From assembly GCA_004335835.1 (NCBI GenBank), contig RWJK01001544.1, positions 1 through 64,000 of the forward strand: 64,000 nucleotides of DNA, read 5' to 3'. This stretch comes from Scenedesmus sp. ARA3. Its lineage: Eukaryota; Chlorophyta; Chlorophyceae; Sphaeropleales; Scenedesmaceae. The translations under genes and the position numbers were made by a program. Shown piece after piece: positions 59-40,400 of the stretch. Each line of letters starts with the position of its first letter. Position 1 is the stretch's first letter. The notes below the pieces were generated by a model that did no database searches, was not told the DNA's origin, and saw only the letters and a list, made by a program, of their open reading frames with translations.

Positions 59-433
59 AGAGCCTTGAATAACTACACTATGTCACCTGGGATTGAGAAG
101 TGCAGCATGACATCAAGCACTCTTCGAGCATCCTGCATGGCGCAGCAGCAGTTAAGTGGCAGTGATGCAAGCAGCAGAAACAGACCAGAGAACGCGCCGT
201 CTTCGATGTGCAACCAACACCTGCGCAGTGACAGTGATTTAAATGCCGCGCCCCCGCACACTGCAGCAGCCAAAGCAGCCGACAACCAATTCGTTCGGTG
301 CAGCGCCACCGTTGCACCTTCTTGAAGGCTGTGCCCATCTCCTTCTTGTTGTGCCGCACGCTTACACATCTGAAACCTCACCAACAACTCGACCACCACC
401 ACTGACCATATGTGTTTGCAACCACCGCCGCAC
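1..433. other. Glycyl-tRNA synthetase intron, partial
   Basis: This stretch follows the last visible GlyRS exon and is intronic. It holds a degenerate copy of that exon's 3' end with its donor at about 308-357 ([11 protein letters not shown] followed by GT) and a CAG run at the left edge. No further exon was found before position 1. Confidence 0.6.
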
Positions 434-37400: not shown

Positions 37401-40400
37401 ACACCTTGTGCATCGCACACCCCAGACCTATAGCTTTTTCACAGTCCCCATTTGTCTACTTCCACTCACCGGCTGCCAGGTGGCGCAAGACGCCTGCAGC
37501 AGCCTGCTGCTCAGCCGCTCCACAATGCATGCAAGTGGCACTTGGTAATAGTGTGCACTCTCTTACCAACGACATGCACACAACCCACACCACACACACC
37601 CACTCACCGGCCGCCAGGTGCCTCAAGATGCCTGCAGCAGCCTCCTGCTCAGCCTCACTGCCGCTAGCCAGCAGCCCTGCAAGCCTCGGCACCACCCCCA
37701 GCGATGCCAGGCAGTGTGCATTCGCTGGCTCAGCCGCCAGCCTCTCTAATGCTTGCAGCGTCTGCAGCTTAACCTCCGCACTGGCTGCACCTATCAGCTG
37801 CAGCACAAGGTGCGGCAGCTCTTCGGTAGATGAAGCAGCAGCCTTTTCATCGCCTGCTGCTGCTGCTGCTGCTTTGGCCGCGGCTCCTGGGGATGATGCC
37901 GACTTATCTGCTGCCCTGTCCGATGTTTTAGGAGATGCAATCTGAGCTGCTGCTGCAGCCTCCATGAGGCTGTCATGGCTGCCTGGTGTGACAGAAGGCA
38001 CCAGCTCCTGCAGCTGAGCCACCTGCAGACATATATTCAAATTTATAAATAAAAATCAAAGGAAGCCGACTGGCTGTCACGGCATCAAAAGTTTGGACGG
38101 TTCAAGTCACTTGCTTGTTGGACAAGTACTACTGCAAAATGTGCTCACCTGCAGGCTCACATCCACTAAGCCACTTAGCAGCTGCTCAGGCATCCAGCAC
38201 GGCGGCTGCTGCAGCAGCTGCCGCGCAGCCTCCTCTCGCAGCTGCTGCTGCTGCTGCTGCTTGCTGAAGGATTGTGCGTGCATGCTGCTGCTGCTGCCAG
38301 TGCTGAAGGGAGCTGCCAGTTGAGCAACACTGCTGCCAGCGCCGAGCGCTCCTGCATACCGCTTGTTGTTGTTGCCTGCCTGCTGGTTGAGTAACTCAAC
38401 ATAGCCCGGCCGCAGCTGCCCTGGCCTCGGCTTGGCCTGCTGCAGCGCAAACTGCTGCTGCTGCTGCTGCTGCGCTGCAAAGCTTTGCTGTATGAAAAAG
38501 GGCTGCTGGGAAAGGGGGACCCCCCCTGCCCCTACTGCTGGCACTGCTGCAATCAGCTGCTGCTGGGCTTCCTGCAAGTCTTCAAACAGCTGCGCTTTCA
38601 GCACCCCAGGAGGCTTCGGCAGCAGCGAACCAGGCGGCATCTGCTGCTGCAGCTGCAGCAGGCCGGCGATGGCCCCTTGCACTTCAAGCATGGCGCACTG
38701 CAGGCGGCTCATGTTGGGGGCTAGTTGGGTCAGCAGCTGCTTCTTGCCCACGTGCTGGTGGTGCTGGTGGCTGCACAGCGCCTCGATATTTTTGCAGTAC
38801 TCCACGCACACCTCCTGTAGGGGCGCAGCAGCAATACAGGTGGTTGCGTTTTTCAAGCTCGGCTATGATTTGAATGTGGTGGTGGTGCTGGTGGCTGCAC
38901 AGCGCCTCGATAATCTTGCAGTACTCTACGCACACCTCCTGCAGGCGTAGACAGCAGCAGCAGCAGCAGCAGCAGCAGCAGCAGCAGCAACACAGGCTGG
39001 TGTGTGGTTGATATTGCTTTGTGAGTGCAAAGATTAACTCCAACAGCTTCTGGCTCATTTTTTTTGCAGTATTCCCGGCACAACTCCTGCAGGTTGGAAT
39101 TGTGTGGGCAGCAGCACAGGGACAAGTGTATAGCATCATATGTTTGCATGTGCTGGTGGTGCTGGTGGCTGCACAGCGCCTCGATGTTCTTGCAGTACTC
39201 CACGCATACCTCCTGCAGGGGCGCAGCAGCAGCAGCAGCAGCAGCAGCAGCAGCAGCAGCAGCAGCAGCAGCAGCAGCAGCAGCAGCAGCAGCAGCAGCA
39301 GCAGCAGCAGCAGCAGCAACAGCAGCAGCAAAGGTTGATTTGTACTTGTCATGTTTGAGGTGCAAGGTGGGTTGCCAAGGACTTCAGGCACATTGCTCTG
39401 CAGAACTCCCCACACACCTCCTGCAGGGCAGAAGCCTTCGGGTTTGAACACGTTTGATCTGTGCAAGGTTCAAGGTTTGTTGCCATGGGCTCATATTTCT
39501 TGCAGTACTCCAGGCACACCTCCTGCAGGACGGGAGCCACGGCGGGCAGCAGCACATTTGCTGCTCTGTACAGAGATGCGTTTTTCTGTGCAGGGTTGAG
39601 CTTCCAGCATGAAAGATTTGCACACGCTAGCCTTGCGTCAACTCGTTGTCAGCGGATTGGTGGAAGGCCATCACACCAAAGCATCAAGCAGCGCATGCCG
39701 ACGTAAGCAAAGCAGCAAGCTGCAACAGCTGGGCCCACAGCTGCACCAATGCACCGGGCATGCAGCACGTCATGCTGCTTAGCTGCGATTAAAGTAAGCA
39801 CCATGCTGTTTAGCTGCGGTAACAGCAAGCACCACCACGCTACATGCCTCACCTCTCCGTCTGCGATGCTCCTCAGCGCCACCACAAACAGCCAGGGCCG
39901 CCCCACTCTGTCCACGTGCAGTGCAAGCCAGCCCCACATACTGCATGCAGCAAGCCTCCCCTCTCCCTCTATTGTCTGGGGCAAATCAAAAGCCCTTTTT
40001 GGGACCCAAGCTACAACGATTCACTGCCACTAGCTTCATATCCAGATTATGTGTCATGGGAAAGTCCTGCAGCATTTAGCTGCAGTTCAAGCACTGCACG
40101 GCCTCACCTCTCCTTCTGCAATGCTCCTCAGCGCCACCACAAACAGCCAGGGCCGCCCCACCCTGTCCACGTAGCTCAAGAATGCCGCATTCGCGCCGCC
40201 TGCCACGTCCCTCTTTGCATTGTGTACGCCAGCTGGCGTAATGCATCGGTAGTCCAGCAAGCTCGCCAGCTTGTTGTGCCTGCCTTCCACGCAGCAGCTC
40301 GCATCAAAGGTGATGCGCTGCGTGCCGAGCTCCACACAAACCTGCTGTTTCGAGAGCTTCGCGTCATCTGCTGCCAGGTACAGTACGCTGTGCATGTCTG

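Follow-up and report, generated by a model that had tools for sequence, protein, structure and literature searches.

How do exon ends, with the splice signals next to them, come to be repeated in introns while the exons themselves stay whole? This question is raised by a stretch of 64,000 nt of the Scenedesmus sp. ARA3 genome (contig RWJK01001544.1, here C1158; hereafter the window), which represents one of the 1567 contigs in an assembly of 87.3 Mb. The initial annotation, made from the letters alone, had proposed that copies of the 5' end of an exon occur only upstream of it, that copies of the 3' end occur only downstream, that exons are never copied whole, and that each unit consists of a junction plus flanking intron. 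It left two options, a local duplication process focused on junctions or arrays kept for splicing reasons.

Partial exon copies in the GlyRS gene

The one full exon chain within the window belongs to a glycyl-tRNA synthetase (GlyRS) gene on the minus strand (434..6473, coordinates of the modelled exons and not necessarily of the gene ends). Its nine exons (6473-6283, 5733-5665, 5162-5004, 3695-3501, 2804-2667, 2336-2234, 1653-1474, 903-797, and 532-434) have GT-AG at all borders, and a 413-codon open frame runs through all joins. The identity of the product is indicated by a match to GlyRS in the PDB, with a tRNA-synt_2b score slightly below the curated cut-off. All 15 of the 15 matches of the protein in its own genome fell at one single locus, and a second GlyRS gene as the source of the diverged copies was rejected on this basis.

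The introns and flanks of this gene, with ~400 nt beyond exons 1 and 9 covered by the search, contain 18 partial exon copies of 26-90 nt, none of which is a whole exon. Acceptor-side copies, most of them with AG, were found upstream of exons 1, 3, 4, and 8, and donor-side copies, most of them with GT and one without the donor end, were found downstream of exons 3, 4, 5, 6, 7, and 9. The following positions are all on the minus strand. An 80 nt copy of the 5' end of exon 1 (6545..6624) is identical to its source at 72 of 80 positions, with eight synonymous (S) and no nonsynonymous (N) changes and AG present. Exon 3 has two copies of its 5' end (5241..5415; 5415-5361 and 5293-5241) and two copies of its 3' end (4724..4913; 4913-4834, and 4769-4724 with an eroded donor end). 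For exon 4, five copies of the 5' end (3795..4613; 4613-4563, 4451-4376, 4233-4183, 4075-4000, and 3846-3795), partly arranged in higher-order units of ~380 bp, and two copies of the 3' end (3133..3399; 3399-3310 and 3217-3133) were observed. Single donor-side copies belong to exon 5 (2531..2563, where the donor is at present GC) and exon 6 (1995..2040), and two belong to exon 7 (1251..1402; 1402-1358 and 1294-1251). The 5' end of exon 8 (26 nt, 982..1007) and the 3' end of exon 9 (34 nt, 318..351) each have one identical copy. The region 3620-4622 displays nested duplication, with exon-derived blocks of ~57 nt within the 380 bp higher-order unit.

Occurrence of the copies across the genome

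Outside the window, 20 loci (150.6 kb) were sampled with exon anchors from Pfam searches of the alga's own genome, and genes were modelled from matches to PF00118, PF00133, and PF00171 together with splice-site scores. The genome also gave 47 light-harvesting (PF00504) and 130 kinesin (PF00225) exon matches, a combination that fits a green alga, the kinesin loci lying outside the sample. Three loci (C732, C1176, and C1557) had no usable intron, leaving 17. Local direct repeats exceeded inverted ones by 285 to 8 in the 20 loci and were present in 16 of them; L046, L055, L056, and L060 have none, indicating that the arrays are patchy. The GC content of the sampled loci is 55-63%, and the four repeat-free loci are among the GC-richer ones (57.5-63.4%), which speaks against a simple GC link. 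Composition as the cause of the arrays was rejected, the array-free loci being similar in GC and TGC/GCA content. In one chaperonin locus (L044, contig C1530), 1720 bases read N.

A set of 50 introns (26.7 kb), comprising 8 from GlyRS and 42 from the 17 loci (collinear Pfam matches, re-fit with a stricter gap penalty), contained 62 partial exon copies, which group into 32 arrays and are therefore not independent. Of these copies, 29 correspond to the 5' end of the downstream exon and 28 to the 3' end of the upstream exon, while the remaining five lack the exon edge itself and end a little before the border, all of them on the side that the rule predicts. The source segment lies within one base of an exon border in 56 of the 62 cases and within six bases in 57. 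No whole exon and no wrong exon end was found among the 62 copies, so the one-sided rule of the initial annotation and its statement that exons are never copied whole both hold in these 50 introns with no violation, and the outcome that the annotation had named as refuting, copies equally on both sides of exons, was not found in them. Looser anchoring added 21 copies in 14 further introns (9 donor-end, 7 acceptor-end, and 5 internal), again with no violation, although two of these 14 are parts of a single, already counted intron, divided where a copy had been modelled as an exon.

Besides GlyRS, copies were present at 10 of the 17 other intron-yielding loci, and 25 of the 50 introns had no detected copy. 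No exon-copy match was obtained in the reverse-complemented introns, in an intron of another gene (one tried per exon), or in 232 distal, non-neighbouring exon-intron pairs of the same genes. The source exons are intact, as judged from the GlyRS frame and from the compatible frames of the 42 Pfam-anchored introns. Exon-edge copies with splice signals are a real phenomenon that affects many genes of this genome.

Structure of the duplicated units

In the 32 arrays, the unit length is mostly 97-240 bp, with a single outlier of 480 bp, and a typical unit consists of ~50 nt of exon and ~80 nt of intron. The exon part ranges from 26 to 133 nt and the intron part from 56 to 193 nt, with an outlier of 382 nt. 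The 56 nt minimum of the intron part holds for donor and acceptor units alike; a branch point requirement could account for it in acceptor units, but not in donor units. An array may have up to six copies, as on C1032, where six copies follow each other with a period of ~107 bp. The spacing of successive copies is divisible by three in 14 of 57 cases.

The intron flanks of 34 of the 57 copies are homologous to the source flank (above all 20 shuffles), and those of the other 23 do not exceed all shuffles, upholding the earlier description of the unit as a junction plus flanking intron. GT is present in 27 of the 28 donor copies, with GC in the remaining one, and AG is present in 24 of the 29 acceptor copies. 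The median length is 672 bp for introns with copies and 314 bp for introns without. Two uses of the inner copies were considered and rejected, namely cassette mini-exons, as splice sites at the inner edges are not above background, and read-through of inner donors or acceptors, given the proportion of spacings that are multiples of three.

One-sided layout and junction focus

When a donor is duplicated, the first copy is the one attached to the exon, and when an acceptor is duplicated, it is the last. A tandem duplication across a junction with the exon intact must therefore leave the spare on the intron side, and the one-sided rule thus points to tandem duplication combined with purifying selection on the exon. 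The initial annotation over-read one-sidedness in taking it as a clue to function, since this layout is forced.

The focus on junctions does not follow in this way. The 32 junction arrays stand against intron-only repeats in 6 of 40 testable introns (above 20 shuffles, with ~2 expected by chance), whereas random breakpoints, given the unit lengths observed, would yield 0.53-0.86 junction events per intron-only event, a value that depends on intron lengths reconstructed by array subtraction. After masking of exon-like parts, a repeat was still detected in 20 of 25 copy-bearing introns and in 5 of 25 copy-less introns (12 shuffles); the detection of intron-only repeats looks adequate, because the masked copy-bearing introns mostly still show a repeat. 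The option of junction-focused duplication thus gains support, and the excess reflects either duplication that starts preferentially at junctions or retention of junction copies.

Divergence of the copies from their source exons

The comparison of source and copy in the 58 ungapped copies (the 4 gapped ones being omitted) gave S 172, N 114, and 3 stops, a synonymous share of 0.60. In neutral simulations that used the substitution spectrum seen in the intron flanks, and in which the exon accepted synonymous changes only and the copy evolved neutrally, the share was 0.40-0.42, and at each of four ages none of 300 runs reached 0.60. Neutral pseudo-exon decay as a full account was consequently rejected. 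A similar S:N was obtained with one copy per array (105:68 or 77:49), and a separate count that included the gapped copies (62 in total) gave S 184 and N 124 (cluster bootstrap range 0.52-0.67). Synonymous divergence appears to be about as large as flank divergence, judging from these alignments. Gene conversion confined to the exon part was also rejected, as it would reset synonymous sites too.

Only 4 of the 62 copies are gapped, and frame-breaking indels are rare. In 26 real-copy pairs there are no gaps in the exon parts versus 62 in the flanks, and in 27 copy-copy pairs there are 5 versus 51, with 15 of the 27 pairs from one array; only pairs with confident flanks are kept in this comparison, so that flank divergence is understated. 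Intron composition may itself favour indels; this makes the evidence from gaps weaker and leaves that from codons untouched.

Across copies, S and N are not correlated (Spearman rho -0.06), whereas a constant ratio gives a mean of +0.16, with 0.8% of simulations as low (dispersion p 0.017). Copies with synonymous changes only (S:N of 10:0, 6:0, 5:0, and 4:0) exist beside N-rich ones (1:7, 3:6, 0:5, 0:4, and 2:4). In multi-copy arrays, N per nt is nominally lower in the nearest copies (0.023) than in those farther away (0.040), at equal S per nt (0.052 versus 0.055). Polarised changes in such arrays are S 74 and N 80 for the copy-specific class and S 16 and N 3 for the exon or root class, a contrast that is confounded by birth order. 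If the copies were mosaics, mismatches should cluster, and they do so weakly (Fisher p 0.06, with 3 of the 42 copies below 0.05). The simplest reading is a divergence in two phases, one part while both sequences would have been coding and one part after the presumed death of the copy, and it would be produced by exchange between diverged haplotypes or by continuing exchange with real exons.

Proposed mechanism and alternative explanations

The arrays are probably the result of exon stuttering. In this process, tandem duplication would act on stretches across a splice junction, mostly 97-240 bp long, with ~50 nt from the exon and ~80 nt from the intron, and some arrays would expand to 5-6 copies as units are duplicated again or exchanged unequally. 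Survival would be limited to duplications that spare the exon, so that acceptor units accumulate upstream and donor units downstream while the intron lengthens. The outermost sites, that is, the first donor and the last acceptor, would be used, and the inner copies would leave with the spliced intron. The duplication itself may arise from repair or replication, possibly with exchange between diverged haplotypes. The tandem, direct, and local layout, the anatomy of the units, the intact sources as modelled, the junction excess, and the many homologous flanks can be read from the sequence itself. Plain tandem duplication with neutral decay fails to explain the divergence pattern, and tandem duplication also leaves the junction preference and the intron part of at least 56 nt unaccounted for. 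Tandem duplication accounts for the one-sided layout, but not for the excess at junctions or for the coding-like differences.

The spare unit may have been born diverged, if exons serve as the islands of homology between diverged haplotypes or lineages and an exon-anchored repair event ran into the intron and added a junction segment from the other haplotype. Such a course, which is a refinement of tandem duplication as much as a rival to it, predicts that S sites and introns differ first and that nonsynonymous changes come later, and it would fit the S excess that is independent of N (rho -0.06, dispersion p 0.017), the coexistence of S-only and N-rich copies, and the real-copy pairs that are gap-free in exon parts with many gaps in the flanks. 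However, one S-only copy reaches 10 S in 75 nt, which is high for allelic divergence, the assembly has no second GlyRS copy, indels are rare even in copies with N changes (4 of 62 gapped), and mosaic-type clustering is weak, so that we regard this possibility as tentative. Somewhat unlikely, in our estimate, is that the copies are not debris but stay coding-like because functional exons go on exchanging sequence with them, either across haplotypes or inside an array; if true, the introns of the alga would store alternative exon ends, compatible with the protein, for recombination back into the gene. The second option of the initial annotation, selection for additional splice sites of both kinds, together with their exonic context, as an aid to splicing or intron definition, would agree with junction arrays above random expectation and with exon parts that evolve more slowly than flanks, also between copies. 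Donor strength is also kept (mean 9.92 in copies versus 10.05 in real donors), above the 8.45-7.17 expected from neutral decay at t=0.05-0.09, although younger copies would decay less. The acceptors of the copies, on the other hand, have decayed (mean 6.34 versus 10.08, with AG in 24 of 29), approximately as under neutrality at t about 0.12, half of the introns have no detected copy, and a preference for synonymous differences is not what selection on RNA sites would produce, making this option unlikely.

An assembly artefact, with fragments of another haplotype or strain stitched beside junctions, is very unlikely. S-biased, indel-poor exon parts with diverged flanks do resemble alleles, but the modelled source exons are intact, up to six copies occur at a regular period, 380 bp units are nested, copies include a stop codon and lost AG, and the pattern recurs at 10 of the 17 other loci. 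Slightly less credible still, in our estimate, is that the copies are alternative coding exon ends which enter some mRNAs: against the coding-like differences of the 58 ungapped copies (172 S and 114 N, with 3 stops) and the few frame-breaking indels stand a cryptic acceptor at the 5' edge of only 8 of 28 donor copies (background 0.35), a cryptic donor at the 3' edge of 5 of 29 acceptor copies (background 0.23), and spacings that are not in threes. Insertion of introners or other mobile elements that bear splice sites would place such units in introns as observed, but no match was obtained with the reverse strand, with the single intron of another gene compared for each exon, or in the 232 distal pairs, which makes it extremely improbable.

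Comparison with known systems

Mutually exclusive or duplicated exons are whole coding exons copied with both splice sites. The arrays resemble them in that exon sequence is repeated within an intron, and differ in that none of the 62 copies is whole. Introners are many similar intronic sequences with splice sites, spread between genes; unlike these, the units of the alga were not seen away from their own junction, within a scope of one other-gene intron per exon and the 232 distal pairs. The earlier view that the arrays represent neither classical exon duplication nor introner insertion is therefore confirmed, the units being gene-specific, direct, strictly local, and never whole exons. Constructs with duplicated splice sites offer an experimental parallel, and the introns of the alga are a natural, large-scale version of such experiments, in which an intron offers several donors or acceptors that are almost the same, presumably with one in use.

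Exon stuttering is known in kind from birds and is found here in a very different host, a photosynthetic eukaryote, and in a different form. Hron et al. 2026 (PMC12954441), in the parts considered here, describe on chicken dot chromosomes lateral exon parts that are copied with their splice site through the intron, with coding regions intact. The arrays of the alga share with these the imperfect tandem copies of lateral exon plus donor or acceptor, the strictly local arrangement, and the intact coding sequence. More than 90% of the chicken sources are within 1 base of the border, compared to 56 of 62 in the alga, and the exon part is 20-187 nt (median 36) in chicken versus 26-133 nt in the alga. 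Purely intronic stuttering occurs alongside in chicken, as an accompanying feature and not a criterion of the exon-stuttering screen, and is rare in the alga (6 of 40 introns). Intron length differs among individual chickens according to the same paper, and its authors speculate on repair under replication stress or on meiotic non-crossover events. Copy divergence of the coding type, as found in the alga, is not mentioned in these parts of PMC12954441. The initial annotation had noticed neither this divergence nor the vertebrate parallel.

The hosts also differ. In the parts of PMC12954441 considered, exon stuttering lies mostly on dot chromosomes of a vertebrate, and GC-rich gerbil genes are the sole other case mentioned; in the alga it occurs in the window and at 10 of 17 sampled loci of an 87 Mb genome. 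The presence of arrays at these places in a compact photosynthetic genome suggests that stuttering is older or more general. A literature search on partial exon copies, splice-site duplication, and algal introns gave no algal report among the matches listed, subscription journals being mostly outside its scope, and the term exon stuttering itself was matched in one paper. Intron gain in Drosophila through duplication of a proto-splice site (PMC2891723, as far as considered), in which the duplicated exonic segment becomes a new intron, has in common with the arrays a tandem duplication near splice sites as the driver; it differs in that the segment in the alga spans an existing junction, no intron is added, and the copies are intronic, with homologous flanks in 34 of 57. 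The alga provides a unicellular and possibly tractable host for exon stuttering, and the synonymous-biased, indel-poor divergence raises the sharp question of whether the copies are exchanged with, or used as, real exons.

Other arrays and features of the window

Self-alignment of the window gave 65 local direct repeats versus 2 inverted ones. For arrays other than those of GlyRS, 29 repeat pairs, not all independent, were compared with a crude coding score (contrast threshold 0.4, set after the output had been seen); coding-like continuation was on the predicted copy in 14 pairs, on the opposite copy in 1, and without clear contrast in 14. Some pairs, located at 8.7, 15.3-16.6, and 26.7 kb, are without a convincing junction.

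All of the following arrays are on the minus strand. Donor-side arrays were found at 9861..10193 (source border ~10168, copies ~10036 and ~9910, the copy pair 10036/9910 being without contrast) and 11026..11289 (source border ~11237, copies ~11133 and ~11028, with one of two pairs below the contrast threshold), and donor-side pairs were found at 11512..11873 (source border ~11753, copy ~11518), 22369..22568 (~22502, copy ~22374), 22965..23319 (~23264, copy ~22987), and 39846..40172 (~40107, copy ~39852). Acceptor-side arrays are located at 12102..12339 (source border ~12125, copies ~12225 and ~12326), 21869..22221 (~21934, copies ~22052 and ~22175), 23411..23949 (~23502, copies ~23597, ~23755, and ~23908), and 38749..39554 (~38814, copies ~38938, ~39212, and ~39522, with contrast in two of four pairs). 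The single pair that contradicted the rule by the crude coding score, 23908/23597, belongs to the array at 23411..23949 and consists of two non-source copies. A four-copy repeat array at 37053..37654, between armadillo-type open frames, was assigned no side.

Right of 40.2 kb, the window has no such repeat pair at the self-alignment threshold used. Repeats of another kind were also observed, namely a 73 bp palindrome at 19650-19722 with a 93% match to its own reverse complement, and tandem repeats of ~114 bp on the plus strand at 18828-19211, which lie in an open frame, encode Gln-rich protein repeats, and are not a junction array. The region 41000-64000 contains long minus-strand open frames of up to 786 aa from stop to stop, and a Parkin co-regulated protein domain (PF10274, E 3.9e-24) is encoded on the minus strand at 61670-62344. 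PF10274 is a family of axonemal proteins, and its presence hints at cilia.
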